Source: Panax quinquefolius
Lineage: Eukaryota; Streptophyta; Magnoliopsida; Apiales; Araliaceae
Reading direction: 5' to 3'
DNA length: 64,000 bases
Assembly: GCA_020205615.1 (NCBI GenBank)
Contig: CM035167.1
Coordinates: 57,123,023-57,187,022 of the forward strand
A program made the position numbers and the translations under genes. Shown here piece by piece: positions 312-64,000 of the stretch (positions within the stretch are counted from its first letter, which is position 1; each line of letters starts with the position of its first letter). The notes beneath the pieces were generated by a model that saw nothing but the letters and a program-made list of their open reading frames with translations, was not told the DNA's origin and did no database searches.

Positions 312-448
312 ATCTTTGCACTACAGGCCAAAGATATTCATTTATATCACCAGTTGGTCATGTTTATCTCAACACCTGTTCATCTTTGCACTATGGGCCA
401 AAGATATTCATTAGTTAATCATTCATCTTTGCACTACAGACCAAAGAT
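312..448 (-). repeat. Array of three hairpins with a constant loop (T2 leader)
   Basis: Three inverted repeats at 312-335, 382-405 and 425-448 each pair ATCTTTG with CAAAGAT around a 10-base loop of the form CACTAYRGRC. The same array occurs in every full T2 LTR in the window. Relative to the minus-strand TATA site it lies in the predicted transcribed leader. Confidence 0.75.
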
Positions 449-14814: not shown

Positions 14815-14950
14815 GGTGACTTCCTTTGTGGAATGCACCGAAGCTACTCTCCGTAGGGGACACTATATTTGTGTGGTGGTAAAACGATAGGTGCCATTGT
14901 GACGCGCTATACAAGATTGGGATATGAGTCACAGTTGAGAGCAACCTAAG
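14815..14950 (+). other. Unidentified segment shared with element 5
   Basis: It resembles the reverse complement of 33078-33200. Both carry GTGGAATGCACC and a related continuation through GATAGGT and TGTGACG. In element 5 it lies before the RT linker; here it lies after the RT start, so it is not a fixed part of pol. A partial open frame (VECTKARLSVGDVV) exists in the element-5 copy. Origin unknown. Confidence 0.45.
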
Positions 14951-17267
14951 TGTGACGGCCCCAAAATAGATATACATCACCCATTCTGAGTCGCCAAATA
15001 CATGGTACATAATCAAATATAACTTCAGTAATACAATTGTCCTGCAAAATACGACAACACATATACTGTGAGTTTAAATACAAATATTGTCTAATGGACA
15101 GTATACAAACTCAAAAGGAGTCCTCATAACAATTATTGATACACTATTTTACAAAATAGCGAGGACTACTAAAATAACTATCCTGAACCATCACTCCATA
15201 CCCCGACTACTTCCTGCTATGTTCTCACCTCATGAGAAGAAAAATGGAATAAAAAGGAAAAGGGTGAGCTCAAATAGCCTAGTAAAGAATATTATGACTA
15301 AGATAATACACAACAAATTATCATTAGTCTTCAACAAATTAGATAAAATATAACGGACAACCAGTTTTAGATCAATATTCGTAGCGGAAATAACAATTCA
15401 TTAGAAGAGTTAAGTAGAGAATGAAATCTACTATCATCTATGAATTTAAAAGTCCATCATCAATATTTTATCCATGTAACATCAGTCAATATACATCTTA
15501 AATCAAATATTCATCTTTGCACTACAGGCCAAATATATTCATTTGTATCACTAGTTGGTCATGTTTATCTCAACACCTGTTCATCTTTGCACTATAGGCC
15601 AAAGATATTCATCAGTTAATCATTCATCTTCACACTATGAATAGAAGATATTGATGATCGTCATCATTTAGGACTGAGGATGATGAAAAATATCTTAAAG
15701 AAAATGAATCCAGTGAGATAAAAGATCAAAGATTAGGGATTCGTACTTTAGTTTATCCAAGTTCAAAAATACCTTATAATAATCAATTGTGGAGCAAAAT
15801 TCAAGAATGAAGATCAAAACATGGATACAATCAAAGATAGTAACTATAATAGACAACTTTAACAAAGAAAAGAAAATTTCATTTTTTTCCTATGAATAGT
15901 GCCGTATACGTGAATAGTAACCCCGACATGAAAAAGGTAGAAATTCCATAATGAAATCCATACCAATATTTCGGTATAATGATATTGAAAGAATAACATC
16001 ATTATGAAAAAAATTACATCCCTTACCTCAAAAGAACAAAGATTTCATTTGGAATATCGAATCTGATCTTTCAAGAAAACTTGCAGATCAGATATAGCAA
16101 CTCTCAAAGTATCTAAATACTCACAAAATACGCTCGATAATATATATAGAGAGAGAAAGCTTGTTTTTGGTGTGATTTTCAATTCTAACTAAGCACCCTA
16201 TTTATAGGAAAATGCTTAGAACGCCATAGCAGACTAACTTGCTACCTGATGGCTTTACCTGCTACTATTCAAGCCCACCACTTTTGAAATAAAATTTCAG
16301 CACATTTTTCCAACCAAAAGTGGGGCCCACCCATGTTTTTAATAAAAAAACATTTATTTTTGAAACTTCAATAATTCACAATAAATATCCCTTTTATTAG
16401 AAAAATTTGAAATTTGTGTCTATTCCATAGGAAATTAAATTCTCTACAACTTTGTAGAAGAAAGCTTTTCCAAATTCCAAACAGAAAATGCCCGAAATCC
16501 ATATACAGACGATTTTTAATACCTTCATTCAGACAAAATACTGATAAAATACCTCAACATTAATTCCATCATTTATAACCACATAAAACAAATATTTCCT
16601 TATCATATAAATTAATAAATAATTATTCACAAATAATATTACAGAATCACAATAATGACAACCAGGTCGTTCCCAAGAAAGAGGGGGCTTTCCGATAAGG
16701 ATTTCTCCTTATTGGTGCGCAATTAGGTGACCAAACCCCTTTCCTAGACAGAACTTCTTTAGACATTACCAATAATGCTATCTAATAATATTATTCAAAT
16801 AATATAAATTATTGATCTGATAATGGAGATACTGTGCAGTGACAATTATTTAAACACCAATAATATAAAATATCAACGAAGCAATTATTGAATCAATAAA
16901 ATAAAATATTGAACAGTAATTACTGTAACAATTATTGAGTAGTGCCTTCTTACGTAAGAATCAATAATTCAAAAATCTTTGCAATAATACCGCGTCTTCT
17001 TGAACTGCGACCGTGCGTACATCGTATTTTAACCACTAAGTATATTCAACAAAGTGTTAATTCAGAATAACTACGTAGTTATTTATAAAAACTCAAACTT
17101 GTCATTTTCTTCATCCGACCGTTTTCTGTTATGGGGCCCACAAATGGATGCGCCGTCGTAAGAATATTTTCAGACAACAAGAATATTCCACGACCAAACG
17201 AATATTCTCCGACAACAATGAATATTTTATAACCACTTGTTTAATTTTGCAAAATTTTCATATTTCA
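14951..17267 (-). repeat. T2 LTR, minus orientation, right end cut off
   Basis: It begins TGTGACGGCCCC and follows the element-6 LTRs to CATTTCA at 17267, about 95 bp short of the expected end, where a T3-type LTR begins. No PBS is present to its left (GCAACCTAAG), so it is a 3' LTR or solo LTR rather than a 5' LTR. It holds a hairpin array (from 15512), the two-hairpin box (about 16670-16738) and two GAATATTC palindromes (17181, 17200) plus two degenerate ones. No genes. Confidence 0.85.
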
Positions 17268-26899: not shown

Positions 26900-28101
26900 T
26901 GTAAGATCCCCAACTTTTATGAATAAAGATTAATTCTTCTCGAAATATATTTTTGAATAATATGGTGTGGATTTGATAAAATGTTATAGTTGTGGGTAAT
27001 ATTTACAAATTTTGCAAAGTAAGCAAGTGGTTATATAATATTCGATTGGTCGGGGAATATTCGTTTTAACAGGAAATATTCGTATGACAACACAATCATT
27101 GGTGGACCCTACAACGAAAGTATTGTCGTAGTTAGAAAACGACAGAATTATCTTTTTATAAAAATAACGACGAAATTTTTACCGTTAAACTGTTGAACTA
27201 CTCGGTGGTAAAAGTACAGTAATACGCGAGGTTGCATAGTAGCACACGTTATTGATTATTGATGCTTACGTGAGAAGTCACTCAGTTATACTCAATTATT
27301 GCTACAATAATTGCTGCATAATATCTTTCATATTATTGATTTAATTATTGTCACAATATCATCTGCATAATATTTTATATTATTAAATCAATAATTGAAA
27401 TGACAAAGTTATTCATATTATTATTTACAATATTGACAATGTCTAGAAATTCTGTTGAGGAGAGGTTTGGTCACCTAATTGCGCGCCAATAGGGAGAAAT
27501 CCTTATCGGAAAGCCCCCTCTTTCTAGGGAATGATCTGGTTGTTAAATATTGTGAGTTATAATATTAATGATGAATTAAGCTGAGTCTCAGCGATAAAGT
27601 TGATGAAAACACTTTTTAAATCATAGAAGATAGTAGATATCATGCTCTACTTGACTCTTCTAATGGATTGCTTGTTCCACTGCAGTTAAACTAGATGTTT
27701 ATTGTATTTTATCAGTTTAACACTGTTGAAGGCTAACGATAATTTATTCTGCATTATCTTAGTCATAATATTTCTTACTAGGTTAGTTAAGCTCACCCTT
27801 TGTTTTCATTGTTCTCTTTAGGAAAAGAGAATATAGCTGGGACTAGTCGGGGGACGGAGTGACGGTCCAGATGTTTGCATTAGTAGTCCTCACTATTCAG
27901 TAAAATAGTGTGATAATAAATGTAATAAGGACACCATTTGAGTTTGAATACTGTCTAGAAGACAATATTCGTAGTAAAACTCTAAGCTTATGTTTTGTCG
28001 TATTTTACACGACATTTGTATAATTAAGTTGTATTTGAATTTTATACCATGTATTTGGCGACTCAGAATGGGTGATGTATACCTATTTTGGGGGGGTCAC
28101 A
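26900..28101 (+). repeat. 3' LTR of element 4, internally deleted (1202 bp)
   Basis: It begins TGTAAGATCCCC after the purine tract AAGAAGGGGAGTT (about 26886-26899) and ends TTTTGGGGGGGTCACA. It keeps one GAATATTC palindrome (27055) and the two-hairpin box (27478-27537). It lacks the 1.3 kb or so that holds the TATA box, the minisatellite and the hairpin array in full T2 LTRs. Confidence 0.85.
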
Positions 28102-29618: not shown

Positions 29619-30164
29619 CGTGACGCCCCCAAAATTAGGTATACATCACCCATCTTGAGTCGCCAAATACATGGTACAAAATTCAAATACAACTTAATAA
29701 TACAACTATCGTGTACAATACGATAAAATATAAACTGTTAGTTTGAATACAAATATTGTCTACTAGAGAGTATACAAACTCAAAAGGAGTCCTCATTACA
29801 ATTTATGACACTATTTCACAGAATAGTGAGGACTACTAATGCATCATCTAGGACCATCACTCTGTTCCCCGACTAGTCCCAGCTAAGTTCTCATTTCCAA
29901 AAGAGAACAATGAAAGAAAGGGTGAGCTAAACAAGCCCAGTAAGAAATATTATGACTAAGATAATGCAGAATAAATTATCGTTAGCCTTCAACAGTGTTA
30001 AACTGATACAATATAACAAACATCAAGTTTAATTGCAGTGAACAAGCAATCCATTAGAAGAGTCAAGTAGAGAATAAAATCTACTATCTTCTATGATTTA
30101 AAAGGTTTTTTCATCACTTTTATCACTGAGACTCAGCTTAATAAATAATCCACATCATCAAATC

Positions 30165-30470
30165 ATCCCTGCACTACAGGCCAAGGATATTCTTTAGTAT
30201 CATGACCACGAATTATCCATGCACTACGGCTAAAGATAATCATGTTTTCATCAACGGCCCTAATCATGCCATAAAACAATTCATCTTTGCACTACGGCCA
30301 AAGAGAATCCATAGCCATAATCATACCAAAAAGCGTCCATCAATGCACTACGGGCCAATGAGGACTTTTTTCCACATCATTTGTAACATTACTGGCTATG
30401 ATTACATACCGAATAATCCTCGGTCATAATCATACTAAGTCCATCATGCACTACTGTGCCACAGATGAAT
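30165..30470 (-). repeat. Hairpin array of the element 5 leader
   Basis: Successive inverted repeats share the loop core GCACTACRG, but stems differ: ATCCCTG/CAAGGAT, TTATC/GATAA, TCTTTG/CAAAGA with ATTC/GAAT extension. The right LTR holds the matching array at about 35638-35945, including CATCTATG/CATAGATG at 35914-35939. Confidence 0.7.
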
Positions 30471-30719
30471 TTCAAAAAAAAATATAAACATGAGGATGAT
30501 GACAATGATATAAGAATTCAATAAAACAAGTTCAAGAATTAATTTATTCAGAACTAATAACGCCCAAATTGTTAACATGATCTCGCTTTATAGAGTAAAA
30601 TTCAAGAATGCTCGTAATAATATTTCCATGAAAAGATCTTTGGATGAAGCGCAAATATCAAGGATATTCCACTAATTTCATGGAGTATAGAAGTCAAAAT
30701 TTTAACCAACCGAGTATAA

Positions 30720-31215
30720 TAAAGAATGGAATAACAAAAGAAATCACCATGTACGCGATTTCGATGATATAAAGTTATTCCAATGTAATAATAATTAACG
30801 AGAACCGGTCATGCATAAAGCACGCATGCGAGGATGTTCCAACAAAATAATAAAGAAGCGGAATAATAACAAAAATCAATCACATGCATGCATGCGGTAC
30901 TTCAATGATAATAAAAGTTATTCCAATAGAATACTAATAAGGACGGAATCAGTCCAGACGTAAAATGCATGCATGTGATATTCCAACGAATAATAATAAT
31001 AAAGAGGGAGTTCGTGCGTAAAAAAACGCATGCATGACATATGATATTCCAACAGAATAATAAAAAGACGGAATCAGTCCCACGTGAAACGCATGTACAT
31101 GATGATATTCAAATGAATAATAAAGACGGAATAATAGAAGAATGTCACCAAGTATGTAGGTATTTCTGCGATAACAAAAGTTATTCCAATGTAATAATAA
31201 AGAATGGAATAACAT
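30720..31215 (-). repeat. Palindromic minisatellite with CATGCATG motifs
   Basis: Roughly seven degenerate units of 57-83 bp. Each pairs GGAAT with ATTCC and most carry GCATGC or CATGCATG. The counterpart in the other LTR is at about 36180-36680. It lies downstream of the TATA site, so it is probably transcribed. Confidence 0.7.
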
Positions 31216-32221
31216 AAGTTCTCTTCATGAATACAAAAGAAATAATACTCCCTACGAAAGTACAACAAATAATATTCCCTACCTTAAGAAGAAGAGTCTT
31301 TGGATATATAAGTAGTGAAGTAGCGTAATACTTTCTTCTTTCTCTCTATAGTTTATCTCTCTCAGAGTTTCAAAATTGAATTAAGAGAAATAATGAAGGA
31401 ATGAGCTTCTATTTATAGAAAAATGGATCGCATAGTAACTAAGTCATGAAACGGTCAGATTGATTTACTTTAATCTGACGGTCCATATCCATATTTAAAG
31501 CAAAATCTTTTAAATAAAATATAATATATTCTATTTATAATCTAATAAAACGAATAACTTTATAAAAGACTTTACTACACTATGCAAACACTATGCATAA
31601 TAAAATATAATATATTCTAATTATTGTCTAATAAAATGAGATAACTTTATAAAAGTATTCTATTTTATATAAAAAGATTTTACTATGTAAAATACTATAT
31701 GTATATATATGCTAACAACACTATGCATAATAGAATATAATATATTCTATTTATAGAATAACTTTATAAAAGTATTTATTTTTTATATAAAAGATTTTCT
31801 CGTATTATTACATTAATAATACCAATAAAACAAAACCGAGTGACTTATCACATAAGCATCAATAATCAATACGTGTAATACATTATGCAACCACGCGTAC
31901 ATCATTTACTTTTAACACCGGGTGTTTCAACAAAGATTAACAGTAAAACTTCCGCCGTTATTTTCATAAAGCATTTTTGTCGTTTTCTCAATCCGACAAT
32001 AATTCCGCTAGGGTCCACCAATGATTGTCTTAGTTGTATTTAATATTCCTCGTTAAAATGAATATTCCCCACCAATCGAATATTATAATAACAACTTGCG
32101 TACTTTGCAAAATTTATAAATATTACCCACAACTATAACATTATATCAATTTCACTCCATAATATTCAAAAAAATATTTCGAGAAAATAACATCTTTATT
32201 CATAAAATCTGGGGTCTCACA

Positions 32222-33408: not shown

Positions 33409-33855
33409 TTACGAAAAGCATGATGAGTAGTTAACCAATCTATTCCTAAAATCACATCAAAGGCAAGTATTTTCAAAGAGATACGATCGACAGGTAACGT
33501 GAAAGTGTTGATTTGAACAAGATTTATAAATAGTGGAGGTAACGAAGGTTTCTCCCAACTGAGTTTAAACAAATTTATCAAAGTCTAACTTCTCCGGAGT
33601 TAACTTCAAACATTGAACACAACTAGGTGCAATAAAAGAGTAAGTAGAACCGGTATTTAACACGATATAGACTTCGCAAGAGTTTATGACTAACATACCC
33701 GTGATAATTTTATTCAGGTTCCTTGTCACAAAAAAAACGTTCTCTCTTAAACTACCGGCTTTAGCTTGTCTGGGACATCCTTTGGCATAACTATCCCAGC
33801 TAGACTTGACTTCACCATACGACAAAATCGAGCTAGGTGACCTTCTCTTCCGCAA
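33315..33855 (-). pseudogene. Aspartic protease of element 5, catalytic Asp lost
   Basis: Two frames together cover the domain. The upstream frame (33855-33565) reads SCEVYIVLNTGSTYSFIAPS, so the DTG/DSG active-site Asp is Asn. The downstream frame (33581-33315) has FTLPVDRISLKILAFDVILG then IDWLTTHH, the usual C-terminal part. About 60 bp of the middle are also missing compared with element 6. Inactive on two counts. Confidence 0.87.
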
Positions 33856-34907
33856 TTAAAACACGTTTTGGATTGCTGCGTACAGTTTGGACGGATGTGT
33901 CCCTCCTGTCCGCATTTAAAATATACGACCGGTGGTCGTTCTTCTTCCTTTGAAACGGGTGCTGGTGCCGATGTCTTTACATCATTTTTGAACCTTCTCT
34001 TCTTGAAATGTCCATTCTTATTGTTTTGGCCATGATTACCACCGAAGTGGTTACCATTTCTGACATGTTGATTCCCTCCATGCTTATTGTCACCGCTTTG
34101 ATGATCAATTATCACCCAGATTATTATCATTTTTTTACCGCTCTCTTTTGGTTTGGTTGACTCATTATCGCGATCCAATAACTGAGCCCTATTAAAAATA
34201 TCTGAATACAAACACAGTTTATGAGAGATAAGATATTGATGTATCTCCGGCTTCAAACCTCTTAAAAACATCCGCGTCATTCTCTCTTCATTATCAACCA
34301 AGTGGGACACAAATCGGGACAACTCGGCAAACTTGGCTTCGTACTGCGACACGGTCATGTTATTTTGCTCCAACTTGATAAATTCCACCTCCTTCATGTG
34401 ACGATTGCTTTCGGGAAAGTACTTGTCATTGAACAGCTCTTGGAACTTCTCCCAAGACATCTTGAGTGCGTCAGGCTGGGTACGTTTTACAGATTCCCAC
34501 CAGTAATCTGCCTCTTCACGCAACATGAAGGTGACAAAGAGAACCTTTTACTCCTCGGAGCATCCCAAGACATCAAATATCTTGGTGATCTGCTTTAACC
34601 ACGTTTCCGCCTTAAGTGGTTCTGGCTTTCCCAAAAACTCCGGTGGTCCCAGCGCCTTGAATTGCTTAGCGATGACCAACCGTGGGTTGCCATTATTTCC
34701 TCCTGCATTATGAACAGGAGCCGTCTTCGCCTGATGTTGCATGAATTCTAAAAAGCTCCTAAACATACCGTCGTTCGTCAATTGATCAGTGTTGTTGTTT
34801 ACAGGAGGATTATCGCCATCCTGTTGCACATTATCCTGATTATTGATCTGTGGAGAATCAACAGTCTCCTGTGCTCCATTGCTTATCTCAACATTTTCAG
34901 ATGCCAT
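33747..34907 (-). pseudogene. gag: gag of element 5, one stop
   Basis: Starts MASENVEISN at 34907 (matching MAAKNI in element 6) and stays in frame for about 385 codons except for TAA at about 34548-34550. Seen in order: a Gln/Asn-rich N-terminus, the capsid-like domain (KQFKALGPPEFLGKPEP, DYWWESVKR, YFPESNRHMKE, FMHxL-like FVSHLVDNEERMT), a His/Asn/Gly-rich basic linker, knuckle 1 YFKCGQEGHIRPNC with its first Cys altered, and knuckle 2 CFNCGREGHLARFC intact. It is the best-preserved gag in the window. Confidence 0.88.
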
Positions 34908-35080: not shown

Positions 35081-35092
35081 GCTTTGATACCA
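35081..35092 (-). promoter_or_regulatory. PBS of element 5
   Basis: Reverse complement TGGTATCAAAGC: initiator tRNA-Met type with one mismatch, two bases from the LTR. Confidence 0.88.
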
Positions 35093-35094
35093 AC

Positions 35095-37681
35095 TGTGAC
35101 GCCCCCAAAATTAGGTATACATCACCCATCTTGAGTCGCCAGATACATGGTACAGAATTCAAATACAACTTAATAATACAACTGTTGTGTACAATACGAC
35201 AAAACATAAACTGTGAGTTTGAATACAAATATTGTCTACTAGAGAGTATACAAACTCAAAAGGAGTCCTCATTACAATTTATCACACTATTTCACAGAAT
35301 AGTGAGGACTACTAATGCACCATCTAGGAACATCACTCTGTTCCCAGACTAGTCCCAGCTACGTTCTCATTTCCTGAAGAGAACAATGAAAGAAAGGGTG
35401 AGCTCAACTAGTCTAGTAAAAAATATTATGACTAAGATAATGCAAAATAAATTATCGTTAGCCTTCAACAGTGTTAAACTGATACAATATAACAAACATG
35501 AAGTTTAACTGCAGTGGAAAAAATAATCCATTAGAAGAGTCAAGTAGAGAATAAAATCTACTATCTTCTATGATTTAAAAGGTTTTTCATCACTTTTATC
35601 GCTGAGACTCAGCTTAATAAATAATCCACATCATCAAATCATCCCTGCACTACAGGCCAAGGATATTCTTTAGTATCACGACCACGAATTATCCATGCAC
35701 TACGGTTAAAGATAATCATGTTTTCATCAATGGTCCTGATCATGCCATAAAACAATTCATCTTTGCACTACGGCCAAAAAGAATCCATAGCCATAATCAT
35801 ACTAAAAACTGTCCATCAATGCACTACGGGCCAATGAAGACTTTTTCCATATCATTTGTAACATTACGGTTATGATTACACCGAATAATCCCTGGTCATA
35901 ATCATACCAAGTCCATCTATGAACTACAGGCCATAGATGACTTTCAAAAAAAATATAAACATGAGGATGATGACAATGATATAAGAATTCAATAAAACAA
36001 GTTCAAGAATTAATTTATTCAGGAACTAATAACGTCCAAATTGTCAACATGATATCGCTTTGTAGAGTAAAATTCAAGTATACTCGTAAGAATATTTCCA
36101 TGAAAGATCTTTGGATGAAGCTTAAATATCAAGGATATTCCACTAATTTCATGGAGTATAGAAGTCAAAACTTTAACCAACCGAGTATAATAAAGAATGG
36201 AATAACAAAAGAAATCACCATGCATGCAGATTGCATGGACAAAGTTATTCCAATAGAATAGTAATTAACGAGAACCTGTGTAAATGCAAAAAAGCATGCA
36301 CGGGATGTTCCAACAGAATACTAAAGAACGGAATAATAATTGAAATCACCATGCATGCGGTACTTGATTGATGACAAAGTTATTCCAATGTAATACTAAT
36401 AAGGATGGAATTAGGTCCCACAGAAATGAATGTAGTATATGATATTCCAATGTAATAATAATAAAGAGGCGGAACCAGTCCCACAGAAACGCATGCATAA
36501 GATATATATATTCTAAATGTAATAATAAAGACGGAATCAGTCCTGCGTAAAACGTAAAAACAACAAAATGCAGGATATTCCAATGTAATAATAAAGACGG
36601 AATAATAGAAGAATGTCACCAAGTATAGGGTAGCCCACAGTATACTGAGTTATTCCAATGTAATAATAAAGAATGGAATAACATAAGTTCTCTTCATAAA
36701 TACAAAAGAAATAATATTCCCTACGAAAGTACAACAAATAATATTCCCTACCTTTAAGAAGAAAGTATTGGATATATAAGTAGTGAAGTAGCGTAATACT
36801 TTCTTCTTTTTCTCTATAGTTTTCTCTCTAGAGTTTCAAAGTGAATTCGTAAGAAAATAATAAAGGAATGAGCTTCTATTTATAGAAAAATGGATCAGAT
36901 AGTAACTAAGTCATGAACGGTCCAGATTGATTTACTTTAATCGACTATCCATATTTAAAGCAAAATCTTTTAAATAAAATATAATATATTCTATTTATAA
37001 TCTAATAAAACGAATAACTTTATAAAAGATTTTACTATGCAAACACTACGCATCACTAGCCTTATGCATAATAAAATATAATATATTCCAATTATTTGTC
37101 TAATAAAGCAGATAACTTTATAAAAGTATTACATTTTATATAAAAAGATTTACTATGCAAAATACTATGCAGACACTGTGCAACACTATGCATAATATAA
37201 TATAATATATTCTATTTAAAGAATAAATTTATAAAAGTATTCTGTTTTATATAAAAAGATTTTCTGTATTATTACATTAATAATACCAATAAAACAAAAC
37301 TAAGTGACTTATCACATAAGCATCAATAATCAATATCGTGTGCTACTGTGTAACTACGCGTATTACTGTATTTTTAACACCGGGTGTTTCAACATTTAAC
37401 GGTAAAACTTCCGCCGTTATTTTCATAAAGTATTTTTATTGTTTTCTCAATCCGACAATAATTCCGTTGTGGGGTCCAATAATGATTGTGTCGTTGTACG
37501 AATATTCTCTGTTAAAACGAATATTCCCCGACCAATCGAATATTATAATAACAACTTGCGTACTTTTCAAAATTTATAAATATTACCCACAACTATAACA
37601 TTATATCAATTTCACTCCATAATATTCAAAAAACTATTTCGAGAAAATAAAATCTTTATTCATAAAATCTGGGGTCTCACA
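35095..37681 (-). repeat. 5' LTR of element 5 (2587 bp)
   Basis: Plus-strand TGTGACGCCCCC to GGGGTCTCACA. TATA site at 36877-36884 (TATTTATA on plus). GAATATTC palindromes at 37500-37507 and 37519-37526, with a degenerate third at 37538. By eye it differs from the left LTR by scattered substitutions and small indels. No gene. Confidence 0.9.
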
Positions 37682-40701: not shown

Positions 40702-43302
40702 TGTGACGCCCCCAAAATAGGTATACAACACCCATTTTGAGTCGCTAAATACATGGTACAGAAATAACTACAACTTTATTAATACAACTGTCGAGCAAAA
40801 TACGACAACACTTAAACTGTGAGTTTAAATACAAATATTGTAATCTAGACAATATCGACACTCAAATAAGTCCTCATTACAATTATTGATACACTATTTT
40901 ACAAAATAGTGAGGACTACTAAAACAACTTCTAGAACCATCATTCCACACCCCGACTAATACTCACTACATTCTCGCCTCCTGAGAAGAAAAATGGAATA
41001 AAAAGGAAAAGGGTGAGCTCAACTAGCCCAGTAAAGAACATTATGACTAAGATAATATAGAACAAATTATCGTTAGTCTTCAACATGGAAAAATCTAATA
41101 GAATACAATAGATAACCAGTTTTAAATCAATATTCACAGCGGAAATAATAATTCATTAGAAGAGTTAAGTAGAGAATAAAATCTACTATCTTCTATATAT
41201 GAATTTAAAAGTTCATCGTCAATATTTTATCCCTGTAACATAAATCAATATATATCTGGAATCAAATATTCATCTTTGCACTACTGAGCCAAAGATATTC
41301 ATCGATTGGTCATGTTCATCTAAACACTGCTCATCTTTTGCACTACTGGCCAAAGATATTCATCGAAATCATTCATCTTTACACTACAGGCCAAAGATAT
41401 TCAATAATATCATCATTTAGGACTGAGGATGATGAAAAATATTTTAAAGAAAACGAATCCAGTGAAGCAAAAGAACAAATATTAGGGATTCGTATTACAG
41501 TTTTATCTAAGTTCAATAATACTCCATAATAACCAATTTTGAAGCAGAATTCAAAAATAAGGATCAAAACATGGATACAATCAAATATAGTAACTATAAT
41601 AGACATCTTGGACAAAAAGAAGAAAATTTTATTTTTCGGTGAATAGTGCCGTATCCGTGAATAGTGCCGTATACGTGAATAGTAACTCCGACACAAAAAG
41701 TTCCAAATTTGATAAAACGTTCAGACCAATATTCTGGCACAATGATATTGAAGAAAATAATATCATTTAAGAAGAAATCAACATCCCTTACCTCGAAAAG
41801 AATAGTACTTCTGAATGAATTTTGGATATAACACTGAAAGAAACTTGCACCGTATAGCAACACTCAAAGTATCCAAATACTCACAAATATACGCTCGATA
41901 TTATAGAGAGAGAAAACTTCAAATTCTGGTGTGATTTTCAATTCTAACCTAAGCACCCTATTTATAGGAATATGCTTAGAACACCAAAGCAAAAAATTTA
42001 ATAAATTATTAATATTTTAAAATTATATTCCTACGCACACCACACTAGACCAAAATCATCAGCCATCCACCCCACAAAAATAACAAAAACGTTTTTCTTA
42101 ATTAAAATATTTTAAACTTCAAAAATTAATTATTTTGGAACTTCGGAAATTCAATAATTCATAATAAATAGCCCTTTTATCAGAAAAATTCGAATCTTAT
42201 GTCCTTTTATAGGAAATTCAATTTTCTACAACTTTGCAGAAGAAAGTATTTCCAAATTCCAAACAAAAATTGACCAAAATTCACATACGGACGATTTTAC
42301 AGGCTATAATCAAATTTCAGTCAAGAAATGGGTCCACCAACATGTTTAACATGTTTTAAATATTTTTAGTAACAAAAATACTCTTCCTCATTATTTACTC
42401 ATATATCCCACATTCATTGTAAAAATATCACCATTATTATATTATTGTAATATAATAATAAATTATTTTATCAGAAAAGATAAAATATCAATTTTCAACA
42501 ATTGTCACTTTTCTAAAAATTTCTCCATTTATATCCACATAAATAAATATTTTTCTTATCATATAAATCAATAATTAATTATTCACAAATAATATTACAG
42601 AATCACAATAATGACAACCAGGCCGTTCCCAGGAAAGAGGGGGCTTTCCAATAAGGATTTCTCCTTACTGGCGCGCAATTAGGTGACCAAACCTCTCCTT
42701 AGACAAAACTTTCTAGACATTGCCAATAATGCTATCTAATAATATTATTCAAATAATATGAATTATTGATTTGATAATGGAAAATACTATGTAGTGACAA
42801 TTATTAAAACAACAATAATATAAAATATCAACGTAGCAATTATTGAATCAATAAAATAAAATATCGAATAAAGAATTATCGTAATAATTATCGAGTAGTG
42901 CCTTTCACGTAAGAATAAATAATTGGTTCAATACCATGTGCTATCGCGGCAACAACGCAGACATCGTGTTTTAACCATCAAGTATTCCAACAAGATTAAT
43001 CTGCAGAATAACTACGCCGTTATTTATAAACAACTTAAACTTGTCGCTTTCTTCATCCAATCGCTTTCGTTATGGGGCCCACAAAAGACTACTACGCCGC
43101 ATTTAATATTCCCAACGGGAAGAATATTCCACGACCAAACGAATATTCCCCGACAACAATGAATATTTTATAACCACTTGCTTATTTAAAATATTTGCGC
43201 ATTTTACCCATAACTAACCACATTAATCAATTCAACCCTTACTATTTCAAAATAATAAATAGAGGAAATTCAATTTCATTTATAAAAAGTTGGGGTCTTA
43301 CA
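40702..43302 (-). repeat. 3' LTR of element 6 (2601 bp)
   Basis: Plus-strand TGTGACGCCCCC to GGGGTCTTACA. It holds a hairpin array (about 41272-41400), three 18-bp repeats (41639-41692), a TATA site (TATTTATA near 41961), the two-hairpin box (about 42628-42693) and GAATATTC palindromes at 43122 and 43141. The 42-kb part (about 41990-42530) is AT-rich without ORFs. Confidence 0.92.
41639..41692 (-). repeat. 18-bp minisatellite, three copies (four in the other LTR)
   Basis: Unit GTGAATAGTGCCGTATAC at 41639, 41657 and 41675. The 5' LTR has four units (49079, 49097, 49115, 49133); the LTR at 1-1529 has two near 689. Confidence 0.9.
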
Positions 43303-43316
43303 ACCTTCCCTTCTTA
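43303..43316 (-). promoter_or_regulatory. Polypurine tract of element 6
   Basis: Plus-strand ACCTTCCCTTCTTA; purine-rich on the element strand, abutting the LTR. Confidence 0.85.
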
Positions 43317-45128
43317 TGAAATTTCGTCCTCAAAATTGACGTACACACCTGGTGTTTTGAAAAGGTGAGGATACCTCGTTTTCATTTCTGATTCCAACTC
43401 CCAGGTCCTTTCTTCAATAGCATGGTTCCTCCATAAAACCTTAACTTGTGGTATAACCTTGGTGCGTAGGACATGCTCTTTCCTATCCAAGATCTTAACA
43501 GGTACCTCCTCATACGTTAAATCTTCGACTATCTCGCCTGGTTCTAACTTAATAATGTGGTTTGGGTCCTTCACATATTTACGAAGAACAGATACGTGAA
43601 AAACATTATGAACACGAGACATGCTTGGAGGTAACGCAGGTCTATAGGCCACATTTCCTACTCGGTCAAGAATTTGAAATGGACCAATAAATTGTGGATT
43701 GAGCTTTCCTCTCTTCCCAAATCTTGTAACTCCCTTCCATGGAGCAATACATAACAATACATGATCCCCAATGTCAAATTCCACGTCCTTTCGATGAAGA
43801 TCCGCATAACTCTTTTGTTGATCCTGTGCCGTTTGTATACGTTGTCGAATCGTTTGGATCTTCTCTGTAGTCATTCGTACCAACTCTGGTCCCAACAACG
43901 TTGCTTCTCCCACCTCATCCCATCATATTGGAGAGCGACACTTTCGTCCATACAATGCTTCAAATGGAGCCACACCTATACTTGCCTGATAACTGTTGTT
44001 GTAGGAGAATTCCTCCAATGGTAGGTACTTATCCCAACTCCCTTTAAAATCTAGGACACAAAGTCTTAATAGATCCTCAAGAGTTTGAATAGTCCTCTCT
44101 GATTGTCCGTCCGTTTGAGGATGGTATGCCGAACTGAATCGTAAATCCGTGCCCATAGATATCTGCAAGCTAACCCAAAATCTTGAAGTGAATCTTGGGT
44201 CATGATCCAAAACTATGGATACTGGCATGCCATGCAATCTCACAATCTCACTTACGTACATACTAGCAAGACGTTCAAGGGAATAAGTCTCCCGTATAGG
44301 CAAGAAATGGGCAGACTTGCTTAATCTATCAACAATAACCCAAATCGCATCTATGCCTTGAGAAACCTTGGGAAGACCCGTAACAAAATCCATAGTAATG
44401 TGTTCCCACTTCCATTTCGAAATCTCAGGTGGTTGTAATGGACCCTTTGGTATTTGATGCTCCGCCTTTACATGTTGACAAATTAAACATCTCGAGATAA
44501 ACTTCGCGATCTCTCTCTTCATATTGTTCCACCAAAATGTATGTCGAAGATCATGATATATTTTGGTACTCCCAGGATGGATTGCAAATGGTGTGTTGTG
44601 TGCCTCCATCATGATTCTATGCTTCAAGTCAGAATCGTTAGGAACACAAAGTCTGGAGTGTACTCGAAGTATTCCTTCTTCATCAATTCTTTCTTCTGGA
44701 ATAGTACCTTCTTTAACTTTCTTCTTCATGCGCATCAGCTCCATATCCGTATCTTGAGCAGCTTTAACTTTATCGATTAAAGTCGGTTCTACTCGTATGC
44801 TTGATATCATCATGTGGGTACTTGGAGCCTTTATCTCTATCTTCATCCTTTGCAAGTCATACAAAATGGGCCTTTGTGTTAACAACATTGCACTTGTACC
44901 CACATATGATCTTCTACTCAATGCGTCAGCTACCACGTTTGCTTTTCCAAGATGGTATTGGATGGTATGGTCGTAATCTTTCAACAACTCGAGCCAACAT
45001 CGTTGCCGCATGTTGAGTTCCTTTTGGGTAAAAAAATATTTGAGGCTTTTATGATCTGTGTAGATCTTCACTTTCTCCCCATATAGGTAGTGTCTCCATA
45101 TCTTCAACACGAAAACGACTGCTGCCAA
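43314..45128 (-). pseudogene. RNase H, integrase and chromodomain of element 6 (one internal stop)
   Basis: ORF 45128-43923 (401 codons) and ORF 43913-43314 (199 codons) are in the same frame, separated by one TGA at SPI-stop-WDEVGEA. Seen in order: RNase H ([20 protein letters not shown]), [11 protein letters not shown], the HHCC domain ([11 protein letters not shown] ... [11 protein letters not shown]), and a core with [15 protein letters not shown] and [12 protein letters not shown], so all three catalytic residues remain. Next come the GKLNPQFIGPF SH3-like part and the chromodomain-like end ([14 protein letters not shown], then EERTWE). It ends NFEDEIS, next to the purine tract. Integrase inserts the cDNA; here a single read-through event would be needed. 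Confidence 0.92.
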
Positions 45129-45170: not shown

Positions 45171-46105
45171 TTATCGTGAGGCACAGGCTATGACTTTCCC
45201 ATGTTGCATGAGAACACATCCTAACCCTTTGCCCGAAACATCACTGTAGATAACAAATCCATCCGAACCAGACGGTATTGTCAGAACAGTTGTTGAAATG
45301 AGTCTCCTCTTGAGATCTTGGAAACTCTTCTCGCATTCATCGCTCCATACAAATTTTGTATCTTTACGAGTCAGCTGAGTTAACGGAGTAGCGATTCGAG
45401 AAAATCCTTTTACAAACCTTCGATAATAACCAGCTAAGCCCAGAAAGCTAAGTACTTCGGTCACCGACTTCGGTTGCTCCCAACTTTGTATTTCTTCAAT
45501 CTTCGTCGGGTCAACAGACACTCCATGTTTTGACACCATGTGCCCAAGGAATGCTACTTCCTAAAGCCAGAACTCACATTTCTTCAGCTTGGCATATAGC
45601 TTGTTATCACGAAGCCTTTGCAGTACCAGCTTCAAATGGAGCTCATGATCTTCACGGCTTTTGGAATAGATGAGGATGTCATCAATAAAGACAACAACGA
45701 ACTGATCCAAATATTCTTTGAACACACGGTTCATCATATCCATAAAAGTAGTAGGAGCATTAGTCAATCCAAAAGACATGACTAGGAATTCATAATGCCC
45801 GCATCGAAGTTCTAAAGGCGCCTCTTGGAATATCCTCGCTTTTAACCTTCAAATTGATGATATCCGTAATCTAAGATCGATTTTTGAAAAGAATTGTGCT
45901 CCATGCAACTGGTCAAACAGGTCATCAATGCGAGGTAGCGGATACCTATTCTTGATGGTGACATGGTTCAATTCTCGATAGTCAATACAAAGTCGCATAC
46001 TCCCGTCTTTTCTTCTTTACAATAAAACAGGAGCACCCCAAGGAGATGTACTAGATTTAATAAAACCGATGTCCAACAACTCCCCGCAGTTGGACCTTTA
46101 ACTCC
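45171..46105 (-). pseudogene. Reverse transcriptase of element 6, degraded in its first half
   Basis: The fingers region ([29 protein letters not shown]) is visible between 46105 and 45790 but with shifts and stops. ORF 45779-45561 holds [18 protein letters not shown] and the catalytic FIDDILIYS. After a TAG, ORF 45539-45171 has [12 protein letters not shown] and RNase H start [15 protein letters not shown] stop then separates this from the next frame. The two polymerase Asp residues are kept. Confidence 0.9.
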
Positions 46106-47412
46106 TGAAGTTCAATAGGAGCCATTCGATATGAGATTTTAGAAATGGGCTTTGTACCAGGTTCAAGGTCAATAAAGAATTCAACTTCACATTTCAGAGG
46201 TAAACCGGGAAGTTCCTCAGGAAATACGTCAGGAAATTCACTAACAACAGAAATTTTATTCAAATCTGACGTGTTTTTGTTCAAATCCGTGACATGGGCT
46301 AAGAAAGCTTGATATCCGTTTTTCAATAAACGAATAGCTTTATGGCTTGATATGACAGTGATTGACTTTAGAGGTTTGGTTGCTTGAATTCGCATAACAG
46401 GTTGGTTAGGAATATGAAAACTAACAACCTTACGAAAATAATCAATTTTAGCATGATGAGTGGTTAACCAATCAATCCCTAAAATCACATCAAATACAAG
46501 TATTTTCAAAGAAATAAGATTAACAGGTAATGTGATGGTACCAACTTGGATCAAACAAGATTTATAAACAGTGGATGCAATGAAAATTTCTCCTAATGGA
46601 GTCTCCACAGATAAGTCAAAGTCTAATTTCTCCGGAGTCAAGTTTAAACGTTGAACACAAGCAGGAGAGATAAATGAATGGGTAGCACCGGTATCTAATA
46701 AGGTATAAACTTCGCAAGAATTTATGATTAGATTACCAGTGATCACCTCGTTTTGGTTCCTCGCATTTTGACCAGTCACGACAAACGCTCTTCCAGCAAC
46801 CGTTGACTCTGACTTTTCTGGGACAGCCTTTTGAGTCACCATCCCCACTGGACTTGGTTTCGCTACAGTATAATCTCGAGCGATATGTCCTTCCTTTCCA
46901 CAATTATAGCATATCTTGAACTGTTGTGGACAGTTTGGGATGATATGTCCCTCTTTTCCACATTTATAGCATACGACCGGTGGTCGTTCTCCTCCCTTAG
47001 AACCAGTTATTGTTGGTGCTGACGTCTTCACATTGTCATTGTTGAATCTCCTCTTTTTAAAATCTCCCCCTGACTCGTTTCTTCTATTTTCATGGCCACG
47101 ATTACCACCAGAGTTGTTACCTCTTTTGTCCGAATATTTTCCTCCTTCTTTGGTTTTCATTATCTGGATGATCGCCGCTTGCCGGTGATGACCGGTTGTG
47201 GTCCCTCGGTTGAACGTACTCGTTATCTCGCCTAATAATTGAGCCCCGTTGACAACATCCGAATATAAAGAAAATTTTGAGAGATAAGATATACGAATCT
47301 TGGATTTTAAACCTCTCAGAAATATCCACGTCATTCGTTCCTCATTTTCTATCAAATGAGGTGCAAACCTGGATAACTCCGTGAACTTCGCCTCGTACTT
47401 GGACACCGTCAT
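46057..47412 (-). pseudogene. gag C-terminal half, protease and RT linker of element 6 (451-codon open frame)
   Basis: Begins inside gag (MTVSKYEAKFTELSRFAPHL), so the start is not the true one. Residues about 100-130 are Gly/Asn/Arg-rich. Knuckle 1 CYKCGKEGHIIPNC is at 148-161; knuckle 2 CYNCGKEGHIARDY at 168-181 has lost its last Cys. The protease shows LLDTGATHSF near 238-247 and FDVILGIDWL about 70 residues later, with active-site Asp kept. The linker FPDVFPEELPGLP leads to the RT start, where the frame is lost (QLRGVVGHRFY). Gag and protease share one frame, as expected for a gag-pol polyprotein. Confidence 0.92.
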
Positions 47413-47959
47413 GTTGTTTTGTTCTAATCAAATAAATTCAACCTCCTTCATATGGCGAATACTTTCAGGAAAGTACTTGTCATTGAAAAGTTTCTAAAAT
47501 GTTTCCCAAGACAGGCTGAGTGCGACAAGCTGAGTACGCTTCACAAACTCCCACCAGTAGTCTGCCTCGCCACGGAACATAAAGGTGGCGAATGGAACCT
47601 TCTGTACTTCCGTGCATCCCAAGACATCGAATATCTTGGTAATTTATTTAACCCACCACTCTCGCTTTGATCGGATCCGACTTTCCAATAAATTTCGGTG
47701 GTCCCAACTCTTTTGAATCGCTTGGTCGTGATAAGTCACAAGCGTTATTATCATTTCCAACAGTTTTTTGTACACGAGTCTCCCTCGTCTGGTTTTGCAT
47801 GAATTAAAAAAAGCTTCTAAACATTCCATCGTTCATCGTCTGCTCAGTGGTGTTGTTTACAGGAGGAATATTGTCTTCCTGTTGCACGTTCTCCTGGGTG
47901 GTGATTAAAGGTGTCTCCACGGTCTCATTTACTCCACTGTTAATATTCTTAGCTGCCAT
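47413..47959 (-). pseudogene. gag: gag N-terminal half of element 6, frameshifted
   Basis: ATG at 47957-47959 opens MAAKNINSGVNETVE, then the Gln/Asn-rich start and DGMFRSF. Near 47820 the frame shifts, and the capsid-like part is spread over several frames until 47412. The same region in element 5 is nearly intact and served as guide. Confidence 0.85.
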
Positions 47960-48141: not shown

Positions 48142-49412
48142 ACTGTGACGCCCCCAAAATAGGTATACAACACCCATTCTGAGTCGTCAAATACATGGTA
48201 CAGAAATAACTACAACTTTATTAATACAACTGTCGAGCAAAATACGACAACACTTAAACTGTGAGTTTAAATACAAATATTGTCATCTAGACAATATCCA
48301 CACTCAAATAAGTCCTCATTACAATTTTTGATACACTATTTTACAAAATAGTGAGGACTACTAAAACAACTTCTAGAACCATCATTCCACACCCCGGCTA
48401 GTACTCGCTGCATTCTCGCCTCCGGAGAAGAAAAATAGAACAAAAAGGAAAAGGGTGAGCTCAACTAGCCCAGTAAAGAACATTATGACTAAGATAATAT
48501 AGAACAAATTATCGTTAGTCTTCAACATGGAAAAATCTAATAGAATACAATAGACAACTAGTTTTAAATCAATATTCGCAGCGGAAATAATAATTCATTA
48601 GAAGAGTTAAGTAGAGAATAAAATCTACTATCTTCTATATATGAATTTAAAAGTTCATCATCAATATTTTATCCCTGTAACATAAATCAATATATATCTG
48701 GAATCAAATATTCATCTTTGCACTACAGGCCAAAGATATTCACCAGTTGGTCATGTTCATCAAAACACATGTTCATCTTCAGACTACTACCAAAGATATT
48801 CATCGAAAATCATTCATCTTTGCACTCTGTGCCAATGATATTCAAGAATATCATCAATTAGACCGAGGATGATGAAAAATATTTTAAAGAAAACGAATCC
48901 AAAGTGAAGCAAAAGAACAAATATTAGGATTCAGACATGCTTTTATCCAAGTTCAATAATACTCCATAATAACCAATTTTGAAGCAAAATTCAAAAATAA
49001 AGATCAAAACATGGATACAATCAAATATAGTAACCATAATAGACATCTTGGACAAAAAGAAGAAAATTTTATTTTTCGGTGAATGGTGTCGTATCCGTGA
49101 ATAGTGTTGTATACGTGAATAGTGCCGTATACATAAATAGTAAATCCGACACAAAAAGTTTCAAATTTGATAAAAAGTTCAGACTAGTATTTCGGCATAA
49201 TTATATTGAAGAAAATAATATCATTTAAGAAGAAAACAACATCCCTTACCTCGAAAAGAATTGTACTTCTGACTGAATTTTGGATATAACGCTGAAAGAA
49301 ACTTACACCGTATAGCAACAAAGTATCAAAATACTCACAAAAATACGCTCGATATTATAGAGAGAGAAAACTTCAGATTCTGGTGTGATTTTCAATTCTA
49401 ACCTAAGCACCC

Positions 49413-49420
49413 TATTTATA
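49413..49420 (-). promoter_or_regulatory. TATA box of the T2 LTR
   Basis: TATAAATA on the minus strand, followed by GGGTGCTTAG. Conserved in position in the other T2 LTRs. Confidence 0.7.
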
Positions 49421-50553
49421 AGAAAATGCTTAGAACACCAAAGCAAAAAATTTAATAAATTATTAATATTTTAAAATAATATTCCTACGCACACCACACC
49501 AGACCAAAATCATCAGCCATCCACCCCACAAAAATAACAAAAACGTTTTTCTTAATTAAAATATTTTAAACTTTAAGAATTAATTATTTCGGAACTTCGG
49601 AACTTCAATAATTCATAATAAATAGCCCTTTTATCAGAAAAATTCGGATCTTATGTTCTTCTATAGGAAATTCAATTCTCTACAACTTTGCAGAAGAAAG
49701 TTTTTCCAAATTCCAAACAAAAATTGAGCGAAATTCACATACGGACGATTTTACAGGCTATAATCAAATTTCAGTCAAGAAATGGGTCCACCAACATGTT
49801 TAACATGTTTTAAATATTATTAGTAACAAAAATACTATTCCTCCTCATTTACTCATATATCCCACATTCATTGTAAAAATATCATCATTATTATATTATT
49901 ATAATATAATAATAAATTATTTTATCGTAAAAGATAAAATATCAATTTTCAACAATTGTCACTTTTCTAAAAATTTCTCCATTTATATCCACATAAATAA
50001 ATATTTTCCTTATCATATAAATCAATAATTAATTATTCACAAATAATATTACGTAATCACAATAATGACAACCAGCCGCTCCTCAGAAAGAGGGGCTTTC
50101 CAATAAGGATTTCTCCTTATAGGCGCCGCAATTAGGTGACCAAACCTCTCCTTAGACAGAACTTTCTAAACATTGCCAATAATGCTATCTAATAATATTA
50201 TTCAAATAATATGAATTATTGATTTGATAATGGAAAATACTGTGTAGTGATAATTATTAAAACAACAATAATATAAAATATCAACGTAGCAATTATTGAA
50301 TCAATAAAATAAAATATTGAACAAGAATTATCGTGTAACAATTATTGAGTAGTGCCTTCACGTAAGAATCAATAATTGGTGCAATATCGCGTGTGCATCT
50401 TGGCAAAAACGCCAGACATCGTGTTTTAACCACCGGTATTCCAACAAGAGATAATCTGTAATAACTACGTCGTTATTTATAAACTTATACTTGTCGTTTT
50501 CTTCATCCAAACGCTTTCCGTTATGGGGCCCACAAAAGACTGCGCCGTCGTAT

Positions 50554-50599
50554 GAATATTCCCCGACAGGAAGAATATTCCACGACCAAACGAATATTC
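50554..50599 (-). promoter_or_regulatory. Three GAATATTC palindromes 19 bp apart
   Basis: Sites at 50554-50561, 50573-50580 and 50592-50599, then GAATATTT at 50612. Each fits the plant P1BS consensus GNATATNC bound by PHR1-type factors. Comparable sets are in all T2-type LTRs of the window. Confidence 0.65.
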
Positions 50600-50753
50600 C
50601 CCGACAACAATGAATATTTTATAACCACTTGCTTATTTAAAATATTTGCGCATTTTACCCATAACTAACCACATTAATCAATTCAACCCTTACTATTTCA
50701 AAATAATAAATAGAGGAAATTTAATTTTATTTATAAAAAGTTGGGGTCTTACA

Positions 50754-50867
50754 ACATCATACCATAGTGGGCTGACGATCTTATGATCACATCCAACACC
50801 AGGTTCAATTGCATTGATGACTTCCTCGTTTGTCAAATCAGTATCATATTTAGTGATGCCTTAATGA
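50754..50867 (-). other. Exon-like fragment interrupted by element 6
   Basis: The minus strand has a pyrimidine-rich run ending in AG, then 36 open codons (including KYDTDLTNEEV and GVGCDHKIVSPLWYD). Leaving out element 6 and one duplicate of its target, the frame goes on for two codons into 40701 and below and ends in TGA. The codon content looks more like a gene than like the AT-rich surroundings. I do not recognise the protein. It may be a host exon caught in the T3 internal region, or chance. Confidence 0.3.
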
Positions 50868-53167: not shown

Positions 53168-53917
53168 TGTCAGGAATAAACATGTGAATGATATTCCTAT
53201 TTAATATATGATTTGATTATGATATATATGTGAATGAATATGCAAGTATGCTTGCATTAAGAAAAAGTCAGAAAGTCCTTTGATAGATAATAGAAATATA
53301 TGTACAAGGACTTAGAATGAATTAATCAAATATGTTAGGTTGATCCTACATAAGCAAAACAACTTTGTAAAGTCCTTAAAAAGAAATGATGTACAAGGAC
53401 TATAAATATAGAAAGATCAAGCTTGTTAGGTTGATCTTATGATGTAATAGATAGGCTTGTCTGATCGTCGAAACCTTTGCACTGTAAGTTGTAATCGCCA
53501 GAGAGTCAAGGTTAACTCGAGAGCTATCGAGGCAGAATAGGAGTATGCAAGATAGTAGATCTCGGAGTTCGTAGACTGCCAAGGGAAACGAAAAAGGACC
53601 GTAGTGTGTCGAGTAGAGCTTCCTCGGGATCATAGTGTGCTGAGGAAGTCATGTTCAGAATCGTAGAGACAGCCTACCTACGAACAGACCGATCATCTGC
53701 CAAAGCCAAGACAGAAACGTGGACTACACTCAGAGTCATAGAGTCTACTGATACCGAAGCCAAGTCAAGGATCGTAGATCACATTCTGAGTTCGTAGAGT
53801 CTATTGATTACATGCAGAGATCGTAGAGTGTCAAGATCTGATCTCAGGATCGTAGTGTCTGCACCAGCCGAAGCTGAATCGTAGAGTGCAGAACTACGAC
53901 CTCAACAGAAGTGCTCA
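53168..53917 (+). repeat. 5' LTR fragment of element 8 (U3 part)
   Basis: Closely similar to 55245-55997. It contains many copies of TCGTAGAG or TCGTAGTG (for example near 53664, 53787, 53820, 53878). No TATA box and no PBS on its right. Confidence 0.8.
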
Positions 53918-57709: not shown

Positions 57710-59049
57710 TGTGACACCCCCAAATTCGGGTACTTGCAACCCGAACTCGGTGCTTCACGATACCATTTCTATGAACGGAATAATGCTAATAATAATAACA
57801 ATAATATAAAAATCAAACTTAATTTACATTTATCAGAGTCTAATCCCAAGTACGCAACCTTTACTATATTCCTTACATGATAGATAATATATATCATTGC
57901 CTTAATACCTAACTATTACAAAAGATACCATTACACATATTCAGTTTGCTTTCCTTTTTCACTTGTTCTTGTCTGAACCTTCAGGTTGATCACGCTTAGC
58001 TGAAAACATTTAAATTTAAGCAAGGATGAGCATTTGAGTGCCCAACAAGTAATAACAATTAGAAATATAATTAGCTGAAAGAAATAAATGTTTTCTTTGT
58101 ACATCACTTCTACAACGAATTTATAGTTGTGAAGTAAACTGAACCAATAATAATAACATAACAATTCTATCTCAAATTTTTGAAACTACGATAGACTATA
58201 TATATAGGTATTAGTCGACAGATTATGAACATTATTTTTAGTTTTCGCTAAGGTTTAGCAGAACTTCATCTGCAAACCATCATAACTTACAGGCACGAGG
58301 GTGATCTGCCCAATATGCCCTGTATTGATCAATACTACATTGCTAGAACGATATTATCGTTCATCCTTTGTCCGCTTGAGCACATAAAAATTTTCCAGTG
58401 ATCGGGATGTTCATACCTAGTCTGGAATTTGAACCAAAACAATTTGATTGGATACAAAAAGGTTTTATCATATTCAACGACATTTCAAAAGGTTTTATCC
58501 TATTGTTCAACATGTGTTTAAATACAATGATTATCCAAGTGGGGACACTTGTATAACCATATTTCGAAATTAACGAACAGAACATATATATGAATTACTA
58601 TATACTAACATGTTGATAAACAATGATCGGATATAGAATATATCACAATAGGGTTAATAATATAGCATAATAATAATATAATTCTGAAACTTCTTACTCA
58701 TGTCCATTGCATAAAGGAAATGCAAAGGTAAGATACTTGCCTGATGCGCTGCTTACAGTTCGTAACTTAGTTCTATCTTTATATAACACCTATCAGTAAT
58801 AAGATCATTTGATCGATTAGAATAACATATTGTAACACATAATACTGCTTATTGCAGTCAGCACATAACCTATTCACATTGTCACATATGTTTAACAACC
58901 ATTGAATCACAAATAAACACATATCTAATCAAATTATCTAAGTCCAGATCAATTTCGAAACACGCTTGCAAATGAAAGCGACTTAATTTAATGAGTAATT
59001 ATCGAGTCTAAGACTCTGTCCCGTAACTTAGTATCAGTCATTTTATTTT

Positions 59050-60110: not shown

Positions 60111-60189
60111 ATTAATTTCCAGAAATTTCTGTCGCTAAAGGGCTCTATAGCGACAAAACTGTCGCAATAGGTGTTCTTGAGGTGTTCTT

Positions 60190-63534: not shown

Positions 63535-64000
63535 ACCAATTTTGCAAAAGTCGCATGAGTTATTATATAATATTCGATTTGGTGGGAATATTCTTTTGTC
63601 GGGGAATATACATGCGACGACAGTGCACAATCATTAGTGGACCCCATAGCGGAACTAATTATTGTCGATTGAGAAAATGACAAAAATATTTTATGAAAAT
63701 AACGGCAAAAGTTTTACCGTTAATCATTGTTGAACTACTCGGTAGTAAAAGTCTGATGAATACTGTGGTTGCATAGTAGCAATACGGTAATGATTATTGA
63801 TACTTACGTGATAAGTCACTCGGTTTTGTTTTATTGGTATTATTAATGTAATAATACTGTAAAATCTTTTTATATAAAATGTAATACTTTTATAAAGTTA
63901 TTCTATAAATAGAATATATTATATTCTATTATGCATAGTGTTGCATAGTTTTTGCATAGTAAAATCTTTTTATATAAAATGTAATACTTTTATAAAGTTA
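63535..64000 (+). repeat. T2-type LTR (element 5 subtype), plus orientation, cut at both ends
   Basis: It matches the reverse complement of about 37080-37560, including GAATATTC at 63586-63593 and GAATATAC at 63604-63611, and a GCATAGT-rich tail. It continues past the window edge. Confidence 0.85.

Follow-up and report, generated by a model that had tools for sequence, protein, structure and literature searches.

The long terminal repeats (LTRs) of a Ty3/gypsy element of Panax quinquefolius carry arrays of short hairpins in which a constant loop is mounted on stems that change in letter while keeping their pairing. As judged from comparison of the sequences this structure is well supported, and the pairing is in all likelihood under selection in the RNA. 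What might such an array be for? The proposal made here is that it forms a leader hairpin array for packaging and/or dimerisation by way of the element's own Gag, and since the role is inferred this statement as a whole is put forward tentatively, at somewhat less than an even chance. The arrays were analysed in a window, meaning the whole stretch of 64,000 nucleotides from contig CM035167.1 (assembly GCA_020205615.1, positions 57,123,023 to 57,187,022), and in copies from elsewhere in the genome. An earlier note, made from the letters of the window, had described array E, in the LTR family that it called T2, as a set of leader RNA hairpins with constant loop and covarying stems.

The host element

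Self-comparison of the window by blastn delineates two LTR pairs, 29620-32221 with 35096-37681 (88.8% identity) and 40702-43304 with 48144-50755 (93.0% identity), together with additional LTR parts at 1-1530, 14948-17246, about 27037-28101 and 63535-64000. Between the LTRs of the second pair, Pfam matches give the domain order gag, protease, RNase H, integrase, SH3 and chromodomain (Table 1), and because these coding domains lie on the minus strand the element RNA is taken to be the minus strand; the RT region was assigned via DNA similarity to 6691-7605. The SH3 and chromodomain end of the integrase points to a chromovirus, and the array-bearing element is a Ty3/gypsy chromovirus whose chromodomain match is sub-threshold (22.8 against 25.1 bits). 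Its placement in the Tekay/Del lineage is a guess from LTR length only. The candidate TATA box and the end of U5 are separated by about 1.26 to 1.8 kb, which amounts to a long leader, and the stretch adjoining the U5 end of LTR E resembles a primer binding site of the initiator-Met tRNA type.

Named relatives at the protein level, within the best 120 of 570 hits, come for the most part from plant retroelements (Tanacetum, Heracleum, Daucus). A gag protein, P0002, which is 70% identical over 51% of the window's gag, is filed under a Chitinophagaceae metagenome bin and is probably plant DNA inside a bacterial bin. No contig with a gag relative was found among the viral contigs searched, and no tRNA was found in the window. 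Elsewhere in the window there are 0.75 kb direct repeats at 53170-53917 and 55247-55997, 92.8% identical and about 2 kb apart, which are perhaps the LTRs of a short non-autonomous element, and a tandem array of long diverged units at 59041-60116.

Table 1. Coordinates of the hairpins, arrays and element parts in the window.
Feature	Position	Strand	Description and basis
Array A	312..448	-	Three units, stem ATCTTTG/CAAAGAT
Array B	15513..15649	-	Three units; unit 3 is ATCTTC/GAAGAT, a two-sided change
Array D	30165..30467	-	Six units, two with 3 core mismatches; in 3' LTR of the element with LTR E
Gag fragment	33747..34547	-	Capsid plus CCHC zinc knuckle, 3' of LTR E; Pfam
Primer-binding-site-like stretch	35081..35093	-	TTGGTATCAAAGC, adjoining U5 end
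LTR E	35096..37681	-	5' LTR of the element with the reported array; blastn pair with 29620-32221, followed by primer-binding-site-like stretch
Hairpin E1	35641..35664	-	7 bp, one U.G, constant loop
Hairpin E2	35683..35720	-	Outer stem CAUGAUUAUC with GAUAAUUCGUG, inner part weak
Hairpin E3	35755..35784	-	10 bp, one bulged A, one U.G
Hairpin E4	35811..35841	-	Stem with bulge and one U-U mismatch
Hairpin E5	35857..35880	-	Degenerate, 4 core mismatches; lowest-energy model folds otherwise
Hairpin E6	35909..35943	-	12 bp, one bulge, strongest in array E
Candidate TATA box, LTR E	36878..36884	-	Motif match only; LTR E holds other TATA-like sites
Array F	41272..41398	-	Three units; in 3' LTR of the 40702-43304/48144-50755 element
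Integrase end	43314..43922	-	SH3 and chromodomain; Pfam, SH3 above cut-off, chromodomain 22.8 bits, below cut-off of 25.1
RNase H and integrase	45170-43923	-	Pfam
Gag-protease ORF	46057..47427	-	CCHC knuckles and aspartyl protease, 3' of array G; Pfam
Array G	48714..48839	-	Three units; in 5' LTR of the 40702-43304/48144-50755 element

Hairpin arrays and their units

The window holds six arrays with 24 units in total, of which A, B, F and G have three each and D and E six each, in line with the three to six hairpins per LTR of the earlier description. The stems quoted there are likewise present: ATCTTTG/CAAAGAT at 312-335, 382-405, 425-448 and 48714-48737, CATCTATG/CATAGATG at 35914-35939 inside 35909-35943, and ATTC+TCTTTG/CAAAGA+GAAT at 30279-30308. 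The core that had been given as the loop, GCACTACRGGC, holds as a DNA motif and not as the RNA loop, for with the element RNA on the minus strand this reads GCCYGUAGUGC, the loop being GCCYGUAGUG(C), roughly 10 nt. At up to two mismatches the core occurs 27 times in the window, with 17 of these within arrays; shuffles gave 6.2 +/- 2.3, and none of 100 reached 27. Several units have decayed or fold poorly. Units D5, D6, E5, F1 and G3 carry three to four core mismatches, B3 and G2 were assigned by positional homology, B1 reaches only -1.0 kcal/mol, and the lowest-energy folds of D5 and E5 differ from the expected hairpin. Rfam returned no matches at gathering score in the window.

The LTR copies also differ around the array. 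Copy C (27037-28101) has no hairpin array at the expected place, where no core was found at up to three mismatches and the blast pieces join near 27575; this is a natural array deletion. Two LTR subfamilies share U5 until just beyond the first hairpin (14948-15551 against 35092-35679, and 1-349 against 29868-30202) and have no blast match beyond it toward the TATA box, as if the array acted like a junction of LTR exchange between them. In LTR E, between the TATA box and the array, 36184-36690 is occupied by another direct-repeat family of ATTCCAATGTAATAATAAAGACGGAAT-like units.

Motif abundance and sampling

The 3.57 Gb genome contains the exact core GCACTACRGGC 298,264 times and the backwards-read pattern 700 times; the core is thus not confined to the T2 copies of the window with which the earlier note had associated it. 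A set of 61 loci was assembled, comprising the window and 60 stretches taken around exact core matches within the initial 3 Mb of contig C1, which is not a random sample. It contains 228 units at up to two core mismatches, 104 of them exact and 196 distinct, with no overlapping matches. Loci L041-L048 were dropped from all unit counts (overlap with L049-L054 and L089), and L109-L128, which had been chosen by pair type, were used only for the outer-pair counts of one hairpin class. Of 87 arrays, 83 have one to four cores at up to two mismatches, three have five and one has eight, neighbouring cores lying a median of 61 bases apart. Relative to the core, positions from about -8 to +20 carry high information, and the spacers mostly hold 0.0-0.5 bit; as the core was the search key, only the arms count as independent evidence for conservation there. 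The full canonical unit had no exact match in viral contigs and none in prokaryote genome contigs, and a 16-base core pattern matched 40 viral stretches once each, which is read as chance.

Covariation of the stems

Central to the case for pairing is what happens when the arms of different hairpins are exchanged. When scored by duplex energy, the arms of array E pair best in their own combination out of 720 permutations (1/720), with corresponding values of 2/720 for array D, 1/720 for D and E jointly and 1/5040 for seven classes. Across 20 unit classes (228 units, 61 loci), each found in at least two loci, own arms give -8.53 kcal/mol against -5.66 +/- 0.48 kcal/mol for swapped arms, with none of 20,000 swaps better, several of the classes sharing the canonical stem so that they are not 20 independent cases. 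A tree-aware null, in which substitutions were replayed on the tree of 154 distinct units from the first 41 loci, gives a summed excess pairing for the 7-bp helix of 65.6 against 9.0 +/- 20.7 (1/150) or 5.2 +/- 19.2 (0/150). The column pair with the top excess in this test is a stem pair; ranks 2 to 5 are not. In an alignment of 80 units (at most one core mismatch, 80 of 130 distinct references kept), 88.4% of cells are paired against 81.7 +/- 0.7 when shuffled (0/500) and at most 57% in slid controls; the covariation score reaches 0.288, with 0.151 +/- 0.011 in shuffles (0/500) and no more than 0.173 in slid controls. D/E and F/G are each the two LTRs of a single element, and the differences within these pairs therefore arose after insertion; they were rejected as covariation, being no evidence of selection, so that only comparisons of different units and of different elements can supply the evidence.

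Individual pairs can be followed at larger scale. For one stem pair counted over the 298,264 cores of the genome the Watson-Crick combinations are T..A (159,311), C..G (59,770) and A..T (47,520), these three counted types making up at least 89% of exact-core copies, and the others counted are C..A, which is U.G in RNA (13,662), T..G, which is C.A in RNA (5,637), A..A (1,496) and T..T (1,163); nine uncounted combinations hold the remaining 9,705 of 298,264. Founder copies inflate these counts and register shifts blur them, so that they indicate scale and not significance. The outer pair of one hairpin class, in 56 units with no double counts on recount, is A-U in 40 (33 loci), G.U in 10 (4 loci), G-C in 6 (6 loci) and A.C in none, and leaving out L109-L128 gives 30, 10, 5 and 0 of 45 in the same order.

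Other tests are weaker. By whole-sequence minimum free energy (MFE) the arm swap gives 75/720 for D, 14/720 for E and 18/720 jointly. An R-scape-like GTp test with correction found no significance, the best pair having E of about 0.57; no single pair rose above the family-wise null in the tree-aware test of 154 distinct units, and RNAalifold predicted no pairs as the consensus fold of the 80-unit alignment. In that alignment pairs with two-sided change are not beyond shuffles (284/500), further pair types are barely so (27/500), and for both counts the true register is matched or surpassed by some of the slid ones. The comparison of internal with terminal branches, 0.49 against 0.34, is weak, one slid control reaching 0.62. 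Against dinucleotide shuffles the arrays have z values of -3.3 (D), -2.55 (E), -2.0 (G), -1.94 (A), -1.05 (B) and +0.17 (F). Stability at the level of the array is low in B and F. The idea that the array is the most stable fold of the LTR was rejected: in LTRs E and G other parts have lower z, and the ten 120-nt windows with the lowest z all start outside the array. The weak tests are read as the signature of short, AU-rich, partly decayed stems under real but local constraint. Covariation of the stems, as the earlier note had claimed it and proposed to verify over many copies, is thus borne out for the whole helix, through arm swaps, the tree-aware helix sum and pair counts; with these R-scape-like scripts it is not borne out for single pairs, none of which is significant family-wise.

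Strand and position

Is the pairing a property of the RNA, and of which strand? Antisense duplexes likewise beat all swaps in the 20 unit classes, and for D and E jointly an in-register swap score gives 2/720 antisense and 6/720 sense. Since pairing separates from swaps in both strands, the choice of strand has to be made from wobble bias and position. The 179 distinct arm pairs contain 203 G.U pairs in the sense strand and 26 in the antisense strand, against 229 and 64 after swapping and 205 and 74 after shuffling. Neutral differences between paired LTRs, as they read in the RNA, are less strongly biased by strand (A/G 108, C/T 68), and this A/G excess implies a mutational share in the G.U bias at U-A pairs. 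The wobble bias beyond composition, taken together with position, favours a structure in the sense-strand RNA.

With regard to position, 43 arrays with full flanks were compared. The U5-end motif lies within 1 kb on the expected side in 27 of them and is missing in 16, and its reverse complement was found within 1.8 kb on the other side in none of the 43. The distance from array to U5 end is 552-684 nt in 27 of 29 cases, the remaining two being 832 and 937 nt; these motif matches place the array inside the LTR, with a regular interval between it and the primer binding site that follows. A sense TATA box lies within 1.8 kb upstream of 31 arrays, compared with 10 for the opposite orientation on the same side (one mismatch allowed), and 12 arrays are without a TATA match. 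Where the box was found, the arrays thus lie downstream of it in the sense direction, as had been said of the window's copies, and with the transcription start inferred from TATA motifs they are very probably transcribed. A poly(A) hexamer just upstream, which would confine the array to U5, was looked for around the 43 arrays, and no clear cluster emerged.

Proposed role and alternatives

A constant loop on stems that change only in paired fashion typically marks a protein-binding stem-loop, and this combination is the reason that one is proposed here. In such a scheme the leader RNA between the TATA box and gag would usually contain one to six short stem-loops, each with a constant loop of about 10 nt and with stem letters free to change as long as pairing stays. 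The stem would act as presenter of the loop to the protein, and the loop as address. Repetition of the hairpin suggests avidity, several copies giving a multivalent site. The most likely partner would be the Gag that the element itself encodes, for the presence of CCHC zinc knuckles in gag and the place of the array in the 5' leader make Gag recognition the first choice; that this is the role of the array may be so, with chances just short of balanced. The array would then mark the full-length RNA for packaging and/or dimerisation. Many of the loops include GGCC and several classes do not, and a nearby kissing partner is unsupported, the loop complement giving 10 around 39 arrays against 32 for the reversed control.

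The same structural evidence applies if the selected hairpins have another job, such as translation control in the leader (shielding or shunting), an effect on RNA stability or on export from the nucleus, or recognition by a protein of the host. A leader of about 1.26 to 1.8 kb needs some way to reach gag, which speaks for this, whereas an identical repeated loop suits multivalent protein binding at least equally, and a job of this other kind is considered rather unlikely. A mutational origin would dispense with selection altogether. Template switching in quasi-palindromes, during reverse transcription or replication, is a known mutational process that copies one arm onto the other; the hairpins of the arrays qualify as short quasi-palindromes, and a single event could account for two-sided changes such as that of unit 3 in array B. 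Such repair should, however, be perfectly Watson-Crick, whereas G.U is common (10 of 56 outer pairs, in 4 loci, and 13,662 copies genome-wide) and biased to the sense strand, and the constant loop and regular place would be left unexplained, all of which makes this origin improbable.

Two further explanations draw on Sirevirus precedents. The repeats could be a DNA-level cis element, a protein-binding site with dyad arms in the LTR comparable to Sirevirus motifs; arrays of palindromic motifs do occur in LTRs (PMC2829016), and antisense pairing is also above swaps. Yet the arms retain complementarity and not sequence, the asymmetric loop is constant, the arrays are downstream and not upstream of the TATA box in the 31 of 43 where one was found, and a wobble bias would be unexpected for DNA, so that this is held to be very unlikely. 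A source of small RNA, in which processed hairpins feed silencing, has a precedent in the Sirevirus LTR palindromes (PMC10760457). Against it, the stability of whole arrays is unremarkable in several copies, and 156 of 179 distinct stems are 7-12 bp, short for Dicer-like enzymes; because the stems are so short a miRNA-type source in particular is unlikely, and small-RNA production of any type is given only a slight chance. Selected RNA hairpins with Gag as partner thus remain the reading preferred here.

Relation to known systems

In the psi regions of retroviruses such as MLV, HIV-1 and MMTV, hairpins for packaging and dimerisation are located in the 5' leader. Conserved stem-loops in a 5' leader are what was found here too, on the strength of covariation and position, with transcription probable from the TATA motifs. 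The likeness to retroviruses, MMTV (the subject of PMC8096270) among them, extends to several conserved stem-loops upstream of gag and a zinc-knuckle Gag. In contrast to psi, the present array is repeated and sits in the LTR part of the leader, with hundreds of bases separating it from the primer binding site; on the Gag side of such a putative packaging signal, the gag sequence shows CCHC knuckles. Among plant elements, BARE (Ty1/copia) is likewise an LTR retrotransposon with proposed dimerisation and packaging signals, and with a separate packaged RNA pool; it belongs to another superfamily, and the passages of PMC3735527 on these signals describe no repeated constant-loop array.

The nearest known system is that of the Sirevirus palindromes. 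LTRs of these Ty1/copia elements carry repeated palindromic motifs with a CGG-CCG core upstream of the TATA box (PMC2829016), and PMC10760457 links the palindromes to small RNAs and notes that maize Ty3/RLG elements generally have no obvious peak of such structure. Common to both are clustered copies of a short dyad motif in a plant LTR, for which structure and small RNAs have been proposed as relevant (PMC2829016, PMC10760457). The Sirevirus motifs are copia palindromes of conserved sequence on the upstream side of the TATA box; the present hairpins combine a constant loop with covarying stems, the domain order is that of gypsy, the core is GCACTACRGGC and the arrays with a TATA match (31 of 43) lie downstream of it. 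A literature search, with most subscription journals outside its range, turned up no paper whose title or opening of the abstract describes repeated RNA hairpins of constant loop in the leader of a plant gypsy element.

Implications

The means by which LTR retrotransposons of plants label their own RNA are, to our knowledge, little known. The array offers a short, defined candidate for in vitro work that is backed by covariation, and its roughly 300,000 natural variants constitute a ready-made mutational scan of stem and loop. If the proposal is true, repeated structured motifs would be a feature of a Ty3/gypsy lineage as well as of the copia Sireviruses, in this case on the RNA side of the promoter. 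It is conceivable, if more doubtful than the role itself, that the lineage evolved a multivalent array letting Gag select and pair its own RNA, and that this aided its spread to hundreds of thousands of motif copies.
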